Shown here in pieces: positions 27,659 to 36,761 of a stretch of DNA of 64,000 nucleotides. The DNA comes from Conexibacter woesei Iso977N (GTDB lineage: Bacteria > Actinomycetota > Thermoleophilia > Solirubrobacterales > Solirubrobacteraceae): NCBI RefSeq assembly GCF_000424625.1, contig NZ_AUKG01000002.1, forward strand, positions 1,612,001 to 1,676,000, given 5' to 3'. The position numbers were made by a program, and so were the translations under genes. Position 1 is the stretch's first letter. Each line of letters starts with the position of its first letter. The notes beneath the pieces were generated by a model. The model was not told the origin of the DNA and did not search any database. It was given only the letters and a program-made list of their open reading frames with translations.

Positions 27659-28708
27659 ATGACGGGGGATCGCCTCGCGGCGCGCTTGCTGGAGATCGTC
27701 GACATCGCCTCGGAGTCGCGGGACGAGGCGGCGCTGGCGGCGCATGTGCTGGAACAACTCCCGGACGCGCGGGACGCGGGCGACACATGCGTCCTGGCGG
27801 GCGTGACGGAGCGGCGGGAGCGGCCGCTGGTGCTGTTCGCGGGGCACCTCGACACGGTGCCGGCGCAGGGCAACTTCCCGGGGCGGCTGGAGGATGGTGT
27901 CGTCCACGGGCTCGGCGCGGCGGACATGAAGGCCGGTGTCGCGGTGATGATGGAGCTGGCCCTCGCGGTCGGTTCGCTCGACGCTTCGGTCGACGTCGGG
28001 TTCGTCTTCTTCGGGCGCGAGGAACTGCCGTTCGGGGATTCCTCTCTGACGCCGTTGCTGGAGCGCGAGCCGGGGCTGCGCAGCGCGGACCTGGCGATCG
28101 TGATGGAGCCGACCGACAACGAGCTGCACGCGGGCTGCGTCGGGAACATCAACGCCACCTGGACGTTCCGGGGCGTCGCGGGTCACAGCGCGCGGCCGTG
28201 GCTGGCCGACAACGCGATCCACCGCGCGGGGCGCGGGATCGCGGCGCTCGCGGAGGTCGAGGTGGTCGATCACGTCTTCGCGGGCCTGACGTTCCGCGAG
28301 GTCGTCAGCGCCGTGACCGTTCATGGTGGTGTTGCCCGCAACGTCGTCCCGGACGAGTGCGTCGTCGAGGTCAACATGCGCTACGCGCCCGGCACCTCCG
28401 CGGCCGACGCCGAGGCCAAGCTGCACGCGCTCTGCGACCCGCACGGCGAGCTGGTCATCGACGGCAACGCGCCGTCCGGGCTGGTCTCGACGGGGCCGCT
28501 CGTCGACCGGCTGGTCGCCGCGGGCGACGGGCTGACGCTGGCGCCCAAGCAGGCGTGGACGCCGGTGGCCGAGCTGACCGGCGCGGGCGTCGACGCCATC
28601 AACTTCGGTCCGGGCAGGCCGCTGTACGCGCACCGGCGCGACGAGCAGGTCGAGGTGGAGGCCTTGGTCAAGTCCTACAACACGCTGGAGCGGTTCCTGT
28701 GCGCCTGA
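27659..28708 (+). CDS. dapE: succinyl-diaminopimelate desuccinylase
   Basis: A 349-residue M20 family metallohydrolase. The metal ligands are visible in order: His in FAGHLDTVP, Asp in GLGAADMKAG, the Glu-Glu pair in FFGREELPFG, Glu in IVMEPTDNELH and the C-terminal His in RPLYAHRRDEQ. The lid domain contains the VAGHSARPW segment. It hydrolyses N-succinyl-LL-diaminopimelate to LL-diaminopimelate and succinate, the last step before the epimerase. It overlaps dapC by 10 bp, giving coupled dapE-dapC expression opposite dapD-dapF. Confidence 0.93.
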   Translation: MTGDRLAARLLEIVDIASESRDEAALAAHVLEQLPDARDAGDTCVLAGVTERRERPLVLFAGHLDTVPAQGNFPGRLEDGVVHGLGAADMKAGVAVMMELALAVGSLDASVDVGFVFFGREELPFGDSSLTPLLEREPGLRSADLAIVMEPTDNELHAGCVGNINATWTFRGVAGHSARPWLADNAIHRAGRGIAALAEVEVVDHVFAGLTFREVVSAVTVHGGVARNVVPDECVVEVNMRYAPGTSAADAEAKLHALCDPHGELVIDGNAPSGLVSTGPLVDRLVAAGDGLTLAPKQAWTPVAELTGAGVDAINFGPGRPLYAHRRDEQVEVEALVKSYNTLERFLCA

Positions 28709-29826
28709 ACCCGGTCCTGGAGTCGCTGGGCACCTACCCGTTCGTCAGGCTCGACGACGCGAAGGCGGCGGCGGTCGCGCGCGGCATCGAGCTGATCGAC
28801 TTCGGGATCGGCGAGCCGCGGGAGGAGACGCCCGAGTTCATCCGGCGCGCGCTGGTCGAGGCGATCGAGCCGGTGTCGACGTACCCGAAGGCCGTGGGGC
28901 TGCCGGTGCTGCGCGAGGCCGTCGCGGCGTGGATCGGGCGGCGCTACGGCGTGACGGTCGATCCGGATACGCAGGTCCTCCCCACGCTCGGGTCCAAGGA
29001 GGTGATCTTCTCGATGTCCGAGGTGGTCGACGGCGCGGTCGGCGTCACGTCCCCGGGCTATCCGGTGGCGGCGCGGTCGGCGCTGTTCGCGGGGCGCGAG
29101 GTCGTGGAGTTCCCGTTGGACGCCGCCTCCGGCTTCCTGCCCGACCTCGACGCGGTCGGGGCCGACGTGTGGGCGCGCCTCGGCGTGCTGTGGCTCAACT
29201 ACCCCAACAACCCGACGGGCGCGGTCGCGCCGCCGGCGTTCCTGGAGCGCGCGGCGGCGCTGGCGCGCGAGCACGACTTCCTGCTCGCCTGCGACGAGGC
29301 CTACAGCGAGCTGTGGTTCCGCGGCGACGCGCCGGCGTCCGGGCTCCAGGTCGGCGACCTGACCAACGTGGTGGTGTTGAACACGCTGTCGAAGCGCTCG
29401 TCGATGCCGGGGTATCGGTCCGGGTTCGTCGCGGGCGACGCGCGGCTGATCGCGGCGCTGAAGCAGTACCGGCCCAACGTCGGCGTCGCGCCGCAGGAGC
29501 CGATCCAGCTCGCGGCGGTCGCGGCCTGGAACGACGAAGCGCACGTGGTCGAGGTCCGCGACCGCTACCGGCGCAAGCGCGACCTGCTCTGGCCCGCGCT
29601 ACAGGACGCGGGCTTCCGCGACGCGGGCGGGCCGGCGACGTTCTTCCTGTGGTTGGAGACGCCCGGCGGCGAGGACGCCGAGGCGTGCGCGGTCCGGCTG
29701 CTGGAGCACGGGATCGTCTGCGCGCCCGGGTCGTTCTTCGGCCCCGGGGGCGCGGGGCACGTCCGGTTCGCGCTGGCGCCGACGCCGGAGGCCTGCGCGG
29801 CCGCGGCGCACCGCCTGAAGGGCTAG
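28699..29826 (+). CDS. dapC: succinyldiaminopimelate transaminase
   Basis: A 375-residue fold-type I PLP aminotransferase. It shows the substrate loop LIDFGIGEPREETP, WLNYPNNPTGA, CDEAYSELWF and the PLP lysine in VVLNTLSKRSSMPGYRSGF. The class matches actinobacterial DapC rather than general aspartate aminotransferase, a reading reinforced by overlap with dapE. It converts N-succinyl-2-amino-6-ketopimelate and glutamate to N-succinyl-LL-diaminopimelate. The GTG at 28699 lies inside the last codons of dapE. It converges on dapD with a 14-bp gap. Confidence 0.92.
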   Translation: MRLNPVLESLGTYPFVRLDDAKAAAVARGIELIDFGIGEPREETPEFIRRALVEAIEPVSTYPKAVGLPVLREAVAAWIGRRYGVTVDPDTQVLPTLGSKEVIFSMSEVVDGAVGVTSPGYPVAARSALFAGREVVEFPLDAASGFLPDLDAVGADVWARLGVLWLNYPNNPTGAVAPPAFLERAAALAREHDFLLACDEAYSELWFRGDAPASGLQVGDLTNVVVLNTLSKRSSMPGYRSGFVAGDARLIAALKQYRPNVGVAPQEPIQLAAVAAWNDEAHVVEVRDRYRRKRDLLWPALQDAGFRDAGGPATFFLWLETPGGEDAEACAVRLLEHGIVCAPGSFFGPGGAGHVRFALAPTPEACAAAAHRLKG

Positions 29827-29840
29827 ACCTCCCGGAACCC

Positions 29841-30857
29841 CTACGCGTTGCTGTGGAGAGCGGCGTTGAGGCCGGTCCAGGCGGAGTCCGAGCGGGCGAG
29901 CACTTGGACGGCGCCTGACTCGGAGTTGCGGCGGAACAGGAGGCTCGGCTTCCCGGAGAGCTCGCGGGCCTTGATCACTTCGCCTTCCGGCGTGGTGACG
30001 CGGGTTCCGGCGGTCAGGTAGAGGCCGGCTTCGACGATGCAGTCGTCGCCGAGCGAGATCCCGAGGCCGGCGTTGGCGCCGATCAGGGAGCCGGTCCCGA
30101 CCGAGATGACGTCCCTGCCGCCGCCGCTGAGCGTGCCCATGATCGAGGCGCCGCCGCCGATGTCGCTGCCGTCGCCGACGACGACGCCCTGGCTGATGCG
30201 GCCCTCGACCATCGAGTGGCCGAGCGTCCCGGCGTTGAAGTTCACGAAGCCCTCGTGCATGACCGTCGTGCCCTCGGCGAGGTGCGCGCCGAGGCGGACG
30301 CGGCGGGCGTCGGCGATCCGGACCCCGGCAGGCGCGACGTAGTCGGTCATCTGCGGGAACTTGTCGACGGAGACGACCGTCAGCTGACGGTCCAGCGCGC
30401 GGGCGCGAAGGCGGGCGGAGTCGAGGTCGGCGGGATCGACCGGGCCGCGGTTGGTCCAGGCGACGTTCGGCAGGACGCCGAAGATCCCGTCCAGGTTGAT
30501 GGTGTTGGGCTGGACGAGCCGGTGGCTCAGCAGGTGCAGGCGCAGGTACGCCTCGTGCGTGTCCTGGGGCGGGCTGGCGAGGTCCTCGATGACCGTCAGG
30601 ACCGGCACGACCGTGACGTTGCGCAGCTCGTCCGCCCCGACCGCGCCAGCGAACGCGCCGCCGCCGAGATCGGTCGCCTCGGCGGTCCGGAGCGTCCGCG
30701 TCCCACCCGGCGCCGGCCGCTTCTCGGGCGCGCCGTCGAGGCCGAGCTGCGGCCGCAGGTAGAGCGTGTCCAGGACCTTCGGCTCATCGCCCGTCGTGAT
30801 CGTGGCGAGACCAACGGCCCACGCGGGCCCGGAGATGCGCTGCGGCTGCTGAGTCAT
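29841..30857 (-). CDS. dapD: tetrahydrodipicolinate N-succinyltransferase
   Basis: A 338-residue protein of the actinobacterial DapD type. The N-terminal 165 residues are the family-specific domain ([37 protein letters not shown]). A left-handed beta-helix of hexapeptide repeats follows ([59 protein letters not shown]). It transfers succinyl from succinyl-CoA to tetrahydrodipicolinate, committing the pathway to the succinylase branch. It lies 74 bp upstream of dapF with a hairpin nearby. Confidence 0.94.
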
Positions 30858-30931: not shown

Positions 30932-31786
30932 TCAGTCCAGCTCGGCGAGGTCGGCGAGCAGTGCGTCGCTTGCGGTTCCGGCGTAGACCGGCACGGCCCA
31001 GCCGGTCAGCGTGAAGAGCAGCGCCTCGTCGACGTCGACGGTCAGCTCGCCGCCGTCCAGGACCACCGTCACCGGGGAATCCCCACCGTTGAGGACATGG
31101 GCGATCGCCGCGCCCGAGGCGCCGGTGCCAGACGCAGATGTCTCCCCCACGCCGCGCTCGAAGATCCGGGCGCGGATGCGGTCCGGGGCGAGCGGCCGGT
31201 AGAACGACACGTTGGTCCGGTTCGGGAACGCGGCGTGCGTCTCGATGCCGGGCCCGATCTCCCGGAGCTGCAGCTCCTCGAGCTCGTCGAGGTCCGGGAT
31301 CGCGATCGCCGCCTGCGGGTTACCGACCTGCAGGTGCTGGAAGTTCCAGACGTGGCCGTCGGCCGTGGTGACCTGGCCGCGGCCGTCGGCGGCGCCGTCG
31401 GGGTAGTCGCCGGAGGTCAGGCGCGCGCGGCCCATCGCGAGCGTGCAGGTCCGGTCGTCGTGGATCGTCGGGCGGATCTCGCCGGCGCGGGTCTGGATGC
31501 TGAACTCGCGCTGGTCGGTCCAGCCGCGGTGGAAGAGGTACATGACGGCCTCGCGCGCGCCGTTGCCGCTCAGCTCGGCCTCGCTGCCGTCGGGGTTGAA
31601 GATCCGCAGGCGGGCGACGAACCCGGGCTCGTCGGGCGGCGACAGCTCCAGGATGCCGTCGCCGCCGATCCCGAAGTGGTAGTCGCAGATGCGCTGCACG
31701 CGCGCGGGCGTGAGCGCCCACGGGAGCGCGTCGCGCTCGATGATGATGTAGTCGTTGCCCAGCGCCTGCCACTTCTCGAATCGCAT
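30932..31786 (-). CDS. dapF: diaminopimelate epimerase-like protein with both catalytic Cys replaced by Ser
   Basis: A 284-residue protein with clear full-length DapF homology: [17 protein letters not shown], the half-domain pattern and [15 protein letters not shown]. In DapF two cysteines act as acid and base, in CGNG and CGTG motifs. Here both are serine: the first motif reads [10 protein letters not shown] and the second SASGTGAS, confirmed from the codons AGC and TCT. Either it epimerises by another mechanism, it has another substrate, or it is inactive. It lies in a dapD-dapF-miaA strand group, so context still points to LL- to meso-diaminopimelate conversion. The family call is firm; activity is uncertain. 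Confidence 0.88.
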
Positions 31787-31807: not shown

Positions 31808-32704
31808 CTAGGTGCCGCCGACGATCTCCGCGGCGGCCTCCGCGGCGGTGCGGCCGGTGAGGTCGACGTGCTCGACGCCCGGGAGCTTGCGCAGCCACGT
31901 CAGCTGGCGGCGGGCGTACTGGCGGGTGCGGGTCTTCATCGTGTCGACCTCGCCGGCGAGCAGCTCCTGGTAGCCGACGGCCTTGCGGGCGGTGGCCGAG
32001 GCGCCGAGCTGCTCGGCGTGGAGGACCTGCGCGCGGGCGCCGGCGGCGACCATCGCGTCGACGCGCGCGTCGATGCGGGACTTGAGGAGGTCGCGGTCCA
32101 TGGTCAGCGCGATCAGGCGCGTGGGGAGCCGCGTGTCCTGGGTCCAGAGCTGGTTGTTGGTGGTGTTGCCGTCCGTGAGCGCGCCCTGGGCGGCGAGCTC
32201 CAGCGCCCGGACGATCCGGTGGCGGTCGTTGGGGTCGATCGCCGCGGCCGTCGCGGGCGCCGCGCGTGCCAGCTCATCATGGAGCTGTTGGGCGCCTTGT
32301 TGATGGAGTCGCTCCATCAGCGCCTCCCGGACACCGGGCTCGGGCGGTGGCTTGAGGTCGAGCTGCGCGAGCGCGGCCCGCAGGTACAGCCCGGTCCCGC
32401 CGACGACGATCGGGACGCCGCCGTCGTTGATGATGTCGTCGATCTCGGCGTGGGCGCGGCGGGCGTACTCGGCGACGCTGAACGTCTCGGTGACGGGGAT
32501 GACCGAGACCATCCGGTGCTCGAGCCGGCGCTGCTCTTCGGGCGACGCGGCGCCGGTGAGGATCTCGAGGCCCTCGTAGACCTGCAGCGCGTCGGCGCTG
32601 ACGGCGACCGGGCGCCGGCCCCGCGCGCGCAGGATCTCCGCGACCTCGATCGCCACCTCCGTCTTGCCGACCCCGGTGGGACCGAACAGCGCGAGAACCG
32701 TCAC
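31808..32704 (-). CDS. miaA: tRNA dimethylallyltransferase
   Basis: A 298-residue protein. The GTG start gives VTVLALFGPTGVGKTEVAIEVA with the P-loop at residues 7-15. VSADALQVYEGLEI is the substrate-phosphate and tRNA-contacting segment, and VVGGTGLYLRAALAQL and TRQYARRQLTWLRK are later MiaA motifs. It transfers the dimethylallyl group to N6 of A37 in tRNAs reading UNN codons. MiaB, which acts on the product, is encoded 4 kb downstream on the same strand. dapF follows after 21 bp. The upstream region is shared with a divergent SDR gene. Confidence 0.94.
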   Translation of the reverse strand: MTVLALFGPTGVGKTEVAIEVAEILRARGRRPVAVSADALQVYEGLEILTGAASPEEQRRLEHRMVSVIPVTETFSVAEYARRAHAEIDDIINDGGVPIVVGGTGLYLRAALAQLDLKPPPEPGVREALMERLHQQGAQQLHDELARAAPATAAAIDPNDRHRIVRALELAAQGALTDGNTTNNQLWTQDTRLPTRLIALTMDRDLLKSRIDARVDAMVAAGARAQVLHAEQLGASATARKAVGYQELLAGEVDTMKTRTRQYARRQLTWLRKLPGVEHVDLTGRTAAEAAAEIVGGT

Positions 32705-32734
32705 GCCCCACAGTCTGCCGCGCGGCGCGGCCCG

Positions 32735-34736: not shown

Positions 34737-36761
34737 TCAGAACAGCGCCTCCTGGATCCCACCGGACGGCTGCCGTGGCAAGCGCCGGTCGTCCGGCGCG
34801 GCAGCGCCGCGCGGCCGGTCGACCCGGTCACGCGGTCCCATCTGCCGCCGGAACGTGCGCTCGAACGGCCGGTCGTCGGCCGGGTCGCGGCGGAACGGCA
34901 GCCGCTCCGGCGCACCGGCGTCGCGCAGCAGCCGGGCGACGCGGTCCTGCTCGGCCTGCGGCAGGTACGCGCCGCGCGAGTACAGCGCCTCGTAGTGCTC
35001 TTCGAGGTCCGGCCGGTAGGCGCGCAGCCACTCCATGAACACCCCACGGACCTCGCCGCGTAGGTGCAGGCCGATCCCGCCGATCGACGTCGCCCCCGCG
35101 TCGATCGCCGTCTGGATGATCTCCTCCACCTGCTTCGGGTCGTCGTTGATCCCCGGCATCAGCGGGGCGACCAGGATGCCCGTCGGGATCCCCGCGCGGT
35201 TGAGCTCCGCCACCGCCTCCAGCCGCGCTCGCGGGTTCGGCGTGTGCGGCTCGGTCGCGCGCCACGCCTTCTCGTCGATCGTCGGGATCGACAGGTTCGC
35301 GCTGACCTCCGTCACCGCCGCGATCTCCTTCAACAACGGCAGGTCGCGCAGCACGAGCGGCGACTTCGTCAGGACCGAGCAAGGGTTGCGGAAGTCGCGC
35401 AGCGCCTCCCAGATCCCCTGCATCAGCCTGTAGCGGCCTTCGACCCACTGGTACGGGTCGGTGTTCGTCCCCATCGCGATGTGCTCGCCCTTCCACGACG
35501 GCCGCCTCAGCTCCGCACGCAGCACCTCGGGCACGTTGACCTTCACGACGATCTCGCGCTCGAAGTCGCGCCCGGCGTCGAAGTCGAGGTACTTGTGCGT
35601 CGGCCGCGCGAAGCAGTTGTGCGACACCACGCCGTTGGCGATGAAGTCGCCGGTCCCCGTCGTGATGTCATACAACTCGATCGGCTCGGCCGACACCGGC
35701 TCGATCGCCTCCACCCGCAGCGGCGCGTTCGTCTTGATCGAGCGCCCCGCAAGGCTCCACTTCGCGGTCGCCGCCGGCCACGTCAGGTGCGAGAACCGCA
35801 GCTGCTCGCGCACCCCGCCCTGCACGCGCAGCGTGCGCACGCCGAGCGGGTCGGGAGGCAGCAGCGGCGCGGTGAAGCCGAACGACGCCAGCGACGCGTC
35901 GACCCACGACAGGACCGTCGCGTCGGCGCCGGCGATCCGCAGCTCCTCCCCGTCCACGACGCCCTCGGCGTCGAACACGCCGGCCAGGAAGCCCTTGCGC
36001 CAGTCGATGCCCGCTTCGAACGGCCACACGATCAGCGACTCCACGCGGTCGGCGCGCGCGATCGTCGCGAGGCTGTGCGGCCGGTCGCCCGGATCCTCGA
36101 TCCCGTAGTGCGCGAGGTAGGCCGCGACCCGCCCGCGCGCCTCGGGCTCCTGCGCGTCGCACCGGATCGCCCCGCAGAGGTATCCGCGCCGGTACTGGTC
36201 GGTCTCGGCCGGCCGGTCCGTGAACCTCCCGGGCCCGAGCAGCGACACCGCGCGCGTGAGGAACGGTCGCGGCGGCCCCTCGCCGCGCTCGACGTGCTTC
36301 CACCCGCGGTCGGTCAGGAACCGGTGGTCGCCGCTGGCGATCAGCTCGGTCCCGTCCGCGAGCACCACGCGCAGCGCCGGCTTCGCGGTCGTCCAGTGCG
36401 CGCGCACGCGCGTCTCGACGTAGCGCCGCGGCCCGCCGTTCTCCTGCTCGGTCCCGTAGATCGCGTCGCCGACGCGCACGTCGCGCAGCGGCATGTGGCG
36501 CCCGTCGGCCATCAGGATCGGCGTGTCGCCCTCGAGGCAGTACACGCACGCGTGCGAGCACCCGCGGTACGGGTTGATCGTCCACCGGAACGGCATCCGC
36601 GACGCCTCCGGCACCCGGTTCAGCGCGCTCTTGGCATGGATCTCGTAGAAGCGCGTGTCGAGCGCCTCGGGCGCGTCGAAGCGCCGCACGGTCGCCGCGT
36701 CGCGATACCCGGGGAGCCGCGTCCCCTCCTCCGCCTCGATCTTCAGGTTGTCCCACCGCAT
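34737..36761 (-). CDS. Rv2578c-family radical SAM protein containing an intein
   Basis: A 674-residue precursor. The extein parts (1-74 and 383-674) together make a 366-residue radical SAM protein of the Rv2578c/spore-photoproduct-lyase-like group. A 308-residue intein (75-382) interrupts the cluster motif. After splicing the sequence reads RGCSHACVYCFARPTH, restoring CxxxCxxC. Downstream are MGTNTDPYQWVEGRY, LTKSPLVLRDLP and GILVAPLMPGINDD, as in the family. The role may be DNA photoproduct repair or another radical reaction; it is not proven. Two LexA-type boxes lie just upstream. It follows miaB on the same strand after 63 bp. Confidence 0.9.
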   Translation of the reverse strand: MRWDNLKIEAEEGTRLPGYRDAATVRRFDAPEALDTRFYEIHAKSALNRVPEASRMPFRWTINPYRGCSHACVYCLEGDTPILMADGRHMPLRDVRVGDAIYGTEQENGGPRRYVETRVRAHWTTAKPALRVVLADGTELIASGDHRFLTDRGWKHVERGEGPPRPFLTRAVSLLGPGRFTDRPAETDQYRRGYLCGAIRCDAQEPEARGRVAAYLAHYGIEDPGDRPHSLATIARADRVESLIVWPFEAGIDWRKGFLAGVFDAEGVVDGEELRIAGADATVLSWVDASLASFGFTAPLLPPDPLGVRTLRVQGGVREQLRFSHLTWPAATAKWSLAGRSIKTNAPLRVEAIEPVSAEPIELYDITTGTGDFIANGVVSHNCFARPTHKYLDFDAGRDFEREIVVKVNVPEVLRAELRRPSWKGEHIAMGTNTDPYQWVEGRYRLMQGIWEALRDFRNPCSVLTKSPLVLRDLPLLKEIAAVTEVSANLSIPTIDEKAWRATEPHTPNPRARLEAVAELNRAGIPTGILVAPLMPGINDDPKQVEEIIQTAIDAGATSIGGIGLHLRGEVRGVFMEWLRAYRPDLEEHYEALYSRGAYLPQAEQDRVARLLRDAGAPERLPFRRDPADDRPFERTFRRQMGPRDRVDRPRGAAAPDDRRLPRQPSGGIQEALF
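35616..36539 (-). mobile_element. intein with LAGLIDADG-type homing endonuclease region
   Basis: The 308-residue intein starts at Cys75 (CLEGDTPILMADG, block A) and ends at GVVSHN before the +1 Cys383 (block G). Block B reads IASGDHRFLTDRGW. The middle has two LAGLIDADG-like segments (RRGYLCGAIRCDA and GFLAGVFDAEGVV), so a homing endonuclease may still be active or be decaying. The +1 Cys becomes the third iron-sulfur cysteine of the host protein, which makes splicing essential for activity. Confidence 0.92.

Follow-up and report, generated by a model that had tools for sequence, protein, structure and literature searches.

Diaminopimelate (DAP) epimerase, DapF, is a standard case of a thiol-thiolate pair that, with no cofactor, removes a proton whose pKa is about 29, and it is an antibiotic target attacked through its catalytic cysteines. 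Here we analyze the dapF gene of a 64,000-nucleotide stretch of the Conexibacter woesei Iso977N genome (the window, by which we mean the whole of that stretch; the host genome comprises 9 contigs and is 96.55% complete), whose product carries serine at both catalytic cysteine positions. Its sequence, predicted fold and genomic context suggest that this product is probably a working LL-DAP epimerase, a DapF ortholog in which a hydroxyl pair replaces the thiol pair. A broader reading, which we also favor if a shade less firmly, is that DapF would have repeatedly left thiol chemistry in Actinomycetota, and that a whole order would have a wall and lysine enzyme whose cofactor-free epimerization at the alpha carbon, a reaction believed to require thiolates, relies on two serines and dispenses with the catalytic histidine.

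The catalytic residues of Haemophilus influenzae DapF are Cys73, His159, Glu208 and Cys217 (PMC3581254; papers are cited by their PubMed Central identifiers). In Anabaena DapF the catalytic cysteines sit at helix N-termini (PMC12039745) and ten DAP-contact positions have been described (same paper, section 2.2); for the Corynebacterium glutamicum enzyme, switching by a disulfide between both cysteines has been proposed (PMC5296763). The window protein resembles these thiol-pair enzymes (TIGR00652; H. influenzae 1BWZ/1GQZ, Anabaena 9MRO, C. glutamicum 5M47) in fold, DAP contacts, the equivalent of Glu208 and pathway neighbors, and shares a miaA neighbor with Cys/Cys relatives, but differs from the thiol-pair enzymes in that both cysteines are serine and His159 is glutamine; relative to the Cys/Cys set that we compared, its clade further shows serine for Glu194, glycine for Ala225 and a new acid at position 79. 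Serine likewise occupies a catalytic position, on the same fold, in the H. influenzae mutants C73S (2Q9H) and C217S (2Q9J). These, however, are engineered single mutants, whereas the window protein carries a natural, fixed double change together with further active-site changes. The Cys-to-Ser change in DapF mutants is said to hinder catalysis (PMC12039745, PMC11602996).

An active 4-hydroxyproline epimerase with a natural Ser/Cys pair, B9JQV3 (PMC4113996), has its natural serine on one face, a DapF-like fold and a retained 1,1-proton transfer, but only one of its cysteines is replaced, its substrate is different, its sequence is remote and it belongs to the proline racemase superfamily. In the Ser/Thr trans-3-hydroxyproline dehydratase B9K4G4 of the same paper, both cysteines are replaced on the same fold, but the threonine is in a non-catalytic orientation and the reaction is a dehydration, not an epimerization. 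Among the papers listed by our searches of the open-licence PubMed Central literature, none reported natural serine at the catalytic sites of DapF, and a term search found no mention of DapF in a Thermoleophilia marker paper (PMC6544083).

A full-length DapF with serine at both catalytic cysteine sites

The gene and the residues on which the comparison turns are located as follows in the window.

30932..31786, minus strand: dapF ortholog, Ser/Ser variant, 284 amino acids, identified by TIGR00652 and predicted fold
31568..31570, minus strand: Ser73 codon AGC, first catalytic cysteine site (Cys73 of H. influenzae), preceding helix 74-86
31130..31132, minus strand: Ser219 codon TCT, second catalytic cysteine site (Cys217 of H. 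influenzae), preceding helix 220-232
31313..31315, minus strand: Gln158 codon, site of catalytic His159 of H. influenzae DapF
31157..31159, minus strand: Glu210 codon, matching catalytic Glu208; glutamate is kept across all groups
31550..31552, minus strand: Glu79 codon, clade-specific acid directly past the Ser73 motif; Glu or Gln in the clade
31205..31207, minus strand: Ser194 codon; Glu at the same position in the Cys/Cys enzymes compared

Against TIGR00652 (NCBIfam) the protein scores 185.6 bits, above the cut-off of 114.65, and against PF01678 (Pfam) 142.2 bits (cut-off 34.7), the latter being its sole Pfam match at an E-value of 0.001, with no match to the Pro_racemase domain PF05544. 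Its motifs are [10 protein letters not shown] around Ser73 and [10 protein letters not shown] around Ser219, and, by eye, [15 protein letters not shown] agrees with the PROSITE DapF signature (C before GN), in the version quoted in PMC8225329, everywhere except at the cysteine. An initial annotation of this DNA had reported serine at both catalytic positions, encoded by AGC and TCT, in a full-length gene between dapD and miaA; the DNA bears out each of these statements (codons at 31568-31570 and 31130-31132, dapD at 29841-30857, 3′ end of miaA at 31808), but the loss of the catalytic histidine had been overlooked. The protein lacks both catalytic cysteines expected of a DapF and, of the His159 and Glu208 pair, retains the glutamate as Glu210 and has Gln158 in place of the histidine, so that three of the four catalytic residues named for the H. 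influenzae enzyme are replaced.

The AlphaFold2 model, built from an alignment of 45 sequences, is confident over the full length (mean predicted local distance difference test score, pLDDT, 96.4; predicted template modeling score, pTM, 0.92). It places Ser73 directly before helix 74-86 and Ser219 directly before helix 220-232, the very places that the catalytic cysteines occupy at the helix N-termini of Anabaena DapF. The best fold matches are DapF structures with inhibitor or DAP (9mro, Z 37.4; 3ejx, 36.3; 5m47, 34.8), among which O-ureidoserine racemase 7vdy also ranks (Z 36.1); the alignment to 9mro_A spans 268 residues at 1.9 Å and 37% identity, and the DapF fold therefore extends over the full length. 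All ten DAP contacts, mapped by alignment onto the window protein, are present (N11, N64, G74, N75, N156, N192, E210, R211, G220 and T221).

Serine forms in the order, the class and the phylum

A single-sequence scan of 299 genomes of the class gave a match in 280. The window's order, taken as families f1-f4 by kinship code, contributes 103 of the 299 genomes, 102 of them with a match, and the 100 that were read (G202 and G204 were left out and G224 had no match) all combine Ser73, Ser219 and Gln158. A contig scan recovered 66 relatives, most of them titled, for example, Solirubrobacterales, Solirubrobacteraceae, Solirubrobacter, Conexibacter, Paraconexibacter or Patulibacter, titles from which we take the name of the order; these relatives overlap in part with the assemblies of the class set, and Ser/Ser was found in all 62 with both sites readable. 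Whether Ser/Ser is lineage-wide had been raised by the initial annotation, and its spread proves wider than was stated there. In the rest of the class, Ser/Ser is found in families f7 (14/14 genomes read) and f11 (4/4), Cys/Cys in f5, f6, f8, f10 and f12 (31/31), and f9 is mixed (7/12 Cys/Cys, 5/12 Ser/Cys).

The survey was confined to Actinomycetota, and its scan of the other classes covered 246 genomes, 225 with a match, from which 67 genomes in 36 families were read. These were taken among the matches listed and picked in part to enlarge Ser-bearing families; we give no share of serine forms in the phylum because low-scoring families were left out of the reading. Outside the class, Cys/Ser occurs in f23 (9/9), f50 (7/7), f36 (2/2), f44 (1) and f15 (1), Ser/Ser in f46 (2/2) and f49 (1/1), and Ser/Cys in f34 (1); apart from f26 and f40, which carry two DapF genes (see below), the remaining families are Cys/Cys. 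All 310 scored rows, in which one genome may recur and from which 4 partial rows were dropped, have serine or cysteine and nothing else at either catalytic site (201 Ser/Ser, 82 Cys/Cys, 20 Cys/Ser, 7 Ser/Cys), a restriction that suggests selection on the hydroxyl in the serine forms.

Across the phylum's 120 non-redundant Ser/Ser sequences, each site is encoded by all four TCN and both AGY serine codons, and family f1 alone mixes TCN and AGY codons at both. Since the two codon families are mixed, reassignment of a single codon is rejected and it is serine itself that is kept. The initial annotation had remarked on rare codons in the second motif: the letters that it gave, ACA TCT GCG TCT, are correct, but they carry no weight, as relatives use TCG, TCC, AGC and others. 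A quick tree of 194 sequences, built without the two trait columns, implies a minimum of ten changes of the pair state, seven at site 73 and seven at site 219; these counts are approximate because many deep branches are poorly supported and a single class origin was not rejected. Several origins of the serine forms across the phylum are likely on this evidence. Separate Ser/Ser origins within the class were hinted at by the free tree and are not claimed, because a test of one clade gave no ground to reject a single origin (p-value of the approximately unbiased test, p-AU, 0.53); the constrained tree scored even better than the free tree.

Two side observations concern this sampling. Locus L078, from a record titled Chlamydiae bacterium, has miaA next to a dapF that shares 56% identity with that of the window, and is probably a mislabelled or mixed assembly. 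The f7 loci L128, L129, L136, L142-L144, L146-L148 and L216-L220 are Ser/Ser with the second motif SGTS or SGSS (Gly222 to Ser) and keep His158; some f7 Ser/Ser DapF are highly divergent from the window protein, and the G075 match (L147) contains an internal TAG.

Further changes in the active site and retained substrate contacts

Position 158 is histidine in all 106 non-redundant sequences with at least one catalytic cysteine (79 Cys/Cys, 20 Cys/Ser, 7 Ser/Cys), and among the 120 non-redundant Ser/Ser sequences it is His in 29 and Gln in 91. This latter set of 91, chosen for Gln158 and with a mean pairwise identity of 0.64, has Gly225 throughout (Ala225 in the Cys/Cys set compared), Ser194 in 90 members against Glu in the 79 Cys/Cys sequences, and Glu (82/91) or Gln (9/91) at residue 79. 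The order genomes and the named loci supply 170 rows that, like the window protein, combine Ser/Ser with Gln158; their ten DAP contacts are unchanged except that residue 11 falls in a gap once and residue 75 is His once. Contacts are also kept in the Ser/Ser forms of f7 and f11, where residue 221 is Ser or Thr, and the single f49 sequence has Gln64.

Families f26 (L189-L193, L213, L215) and f40 (L239) carry a second DapF paralog that is Ser/Ser, with the second motif SAAG or SATG and altered contacts: G220 is Ala in 7/7 f26 sequences and in the one of f40, and 5/7 of the f26 sequences have Thr or Ser for N156. Both DapF genes were read in 6 of the 9 f26 genomes and in the one f40 genome; in each, the Ser/Ser gene accompanies a Cys/Cys one, except in G433, where its partner is Ser/Cys. 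We regard the loss of contacts in the f26 paralog as drift toward a new role, and the f26/f40 paralog as a candidate new enzyme; no such loss is seen in the window's clade.

Copy number and other enzymes for meso-DAP

The initial annotation had proposed a search for a second dapF or for a meso-DAP dehydrogenase (Ddh). No second DapF was found in the window genome, where PF01678 matches only the two halves of the gene and TIGR00652 gives one match. By TIGR00652, each genome with a match has one DapF in the order (12/12), in f7 (14/14) and in f11 (1/1), that is, in 27/27 Ser/Ser genomes. The single-sequence scan gave one match in 99 of the 102 order genomes with a match and two in G196, G202 and G240. 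Outside the order, 28 of 29 genomes with serine at one or both sites have one DapF, and G433 has two.

Ddh was not found over cut-off in either genome set (0/56 and 0/29), and the sub-cut-off matches, in 6/56 and 6/29 genomes, are partial, none extending beyond profile position 136 of 324. The proline-racemase family was considered as a hidden DAP epimerase and rejected, as it occurs in no more than 13 of the 45 genomes examined from Ser/Ser families (the 45 include G051 and G231, whose own motifs were left unread) and in 4 of 31 in the order. The window genome has two copies, in both of which, by eye, the two cysteines are retained. The best of them, G000:C2:591076-592044 (L269), has its Cys/Cys pair intact and adjoins a dihydrodipicolinate-synthase-like gene and a flavin adenine dinucleotide (FAD) oxidoreductase, a neighborhood that resembles hydroxyproline catabolism (roles by eye). 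The window genome also has three full-length genes of the PhzF family.

Of 56 genomes checked, 55 have a LysA above the cut-off (31/31 in the order); the single miss is G057 (f7). The MurE of the window genome carries the DNPR motif, which we take to be of the meso-DAP type. According to a genome paper, meso-DAP is diagnostic for the walls of all Solirubrobacterales (PMC3035278), and it has been found in a Solirubrobacter (PMC10722151).

Genomic neighborhood and LL-DAP supply

Genes around dapF in the window are the following.

29841..30857, minus strand: dapD, tetrahydrodipicolinate N-succinyltransferase (TIGR03535, 453.7 bits, cut-off 441.5)
28705..29826, plus strand: DapC-kind aminotransferase (best model TIGR03537 DapC, 370.2 bits, under the cut-off of 453.6)
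27659..28708, plus strand: dapE, succinyl-DAP desuccinylase (TIGR01900, 340.4 bits, cut-off 304.2)
31808..32731, minus strand: miaA, 3′ end at 31808, start codon not determined (TIGR00174, 181.6 bits, cut-off 148.65)

Thus dapF is flanked by dapD and miaA, with the DapC-like gene and dapE close by. In many relatives an aminotransferase instead follows dapF; the six tested all score above the DapL-subfamily cut-off NF006756 and below the stricter TIGR03540. In both versions of the neighborhood (dapD/C/E or DapL-type), LL-DAP is the expected local product. Within the class, the miaA gene adjoins dapF at 53 of the 56 Ser/Ser loci and at 16 of the 17 Cys/Cys loci inspected, some on short contigs (the listing also held 12 loci without an assigned state and one Ser/Cys locus), and because it stands beside dapF in both, we take the Ser/Ser and Cys/Cys genes as orthologs. 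The window gene has the orthologous position and the pathway context of a dapF. Elsewhere in the window (34737-36761, minus strand) lies a radical S-adenosylmethionine protein of the Rv2578c family with an intein-like insert, scoring 661.8 bits against NF038136, just below the cut-off of 700; this family is already known as intein-bearing.

Discussion

A serine pair could support epimerization along the following lines. LL-DAP would bind in the closed pocket of the Ser/Ser enzyme, where the alpha proton would be taken by one serine oxygen, with Ser219 acting together with Glu210, or by a bound water held by the serine pair; the other serine would deliver a proton from the opposite face, perhaps directly from Ser73 or through a water that Ser73 and Gln158 hold in place. 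The transfer may be assisted by the helix dipoles and by the substrate's protonated amine. Turnover is probably slow, which would be tolerable in slow-growing cells. For about 5e7 lysines per cell and a one-day doubling, we roughly estimate a need of ~600 turnovers per second per cell, which 600 copies would supply at 1 per second and 6,000 copies at 0.1 per second, so that a slow enzyme would be affordable. With even one thiol gone, the disulfide that is proposed to turn thiol DapF off on oxidation could no longer form, and escape from this switch by every serine form is a plausible reason for the recurrence of the change.

Several points nevertheless weigh against a working hydroxyl-pair epimerase. 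The PddB mutants C101A and C233S keep less than 0.1% activity, a result likened in that paper to Cys-to-Ser Mt-DapF (PMC8225329), and a 2021 review holds cysteine to be favored over serine as a base on account of pKa and easy desolvation (PMC8142540). The Ser/Cys hydroxyproline epimerase that serves as precedent retains one cysteine. No invariant new basic residue that might act as replacement base occurs among the 91 Gln158 Ser/Ser sequences, in which Glu79 gives way to Gln in 9 and the clade's extra Cys114 is absent from 10, and Gln158 would be expected to hinder rather than help the activation of Ser73. The second match in G196, G202 and G240 could be a second DapF, the G202 match listed being a partial gene. 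Five class genomes that are 92-97% complete (G016, G028, G064, G089 and G110), tested with TIGR00652 because the single-sequence scan had found no match in them, have no DapF by that model, which may reflect assembly gaps or loss, or hint at another epimerase. Finally, sequence conservation cannot prove turnover.

Some of these points feed the main rival explanation, namely that Ser/Ser DapF is dead or nearly so and kept for a non-catalytic job while another, non-homologous enzyme makes meso-DAP. Three of the four listed catalytic residues are gone, some class genomes show no DapF, and Escherichia coli DapF with both cysteines changed to alanine still binds and stimulates RppH (PMC4227774). 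We nonetheless judge this explanation unlikely: a dead site should drift, yet only serine or cysteine is seen in the 310 rows and the contacts are kept, the likely stand-in from the proline-racemase family is missing from most genomes of Ser/Ser families, the best copy in the window genome lies among genes that by eye recall hydroxyproline catabolism, and no Ddh scored over cut-off. A new substrate or reaction, such as an elimination or another diamino acid, with DAP epimerized elsewhere, is more doubtful still. It would agree with the Ser/Thr pair of a dehydratase in the related superfamily (PMC4113996) and with the f26/f40 paralog that coexists with a Cys-bearing DapF, but those paralogs lose contacts at G220 and N156 that the window's clade keeps, the 12 order genomes searched with TIGR00652 have one DapF each, and the neighbors are LL-DAP genes in two versions.

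It is also quite improbable that little meso-DAP is needed, with MurE and LysA using LL-DAP or the wall itself containing it, so that a crippled epimerase would be enough. Some Actinobacteria do have LL-DAP walls, and such an explanation could fit other Cys/Ser families, but it sits poorly with the meso-DAP reported for Solirubrobacterales and a Solirubrobacter and with the presumed meso-DAP type of the window genome's MurE. As for sequencing error at both codons or a decayed copy beside a canonical DapF, the two ways in which the initial annotation thought its observation might fall, we give them, like contamination, practically no credence: no support for them was found, the 62 named loci agree with the order genomes, the model is full length with a pLDDT of 96.4, and the window genome has one copy. 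Chance or error is excluded because the 100 order genomes are all Ser/Ser and all six serine codons are used at both sites. Among the three options that the initial annotation had offered, serine chemistry gives the best fit, a new substrate is made unlikely by the retained DAP contacts and the LL-DAP-making neighbors, and, of other routes to meso-DAP, the known one through Ddh was not found.

If the Ser/Ser enzyme works as we propose, the thiol-pair rule would be wrong or incomplete, and cysteine-directed DapF inhibitors should fail on these bacteria. The family would then offer a natural series, Cys/Cys, Ser/Cys, Cys/Ser, Ser/Ser with His and Ser/Ser with Gln, for dissecting catalysis. If instead the Ser/Ser protein is inactive, another, undiscovered DAP epimerase must exist in a large order of soil bacteria. 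Either outcome would be new: a hydroxyl-based DapF or an undiscovered DAP epimerase.
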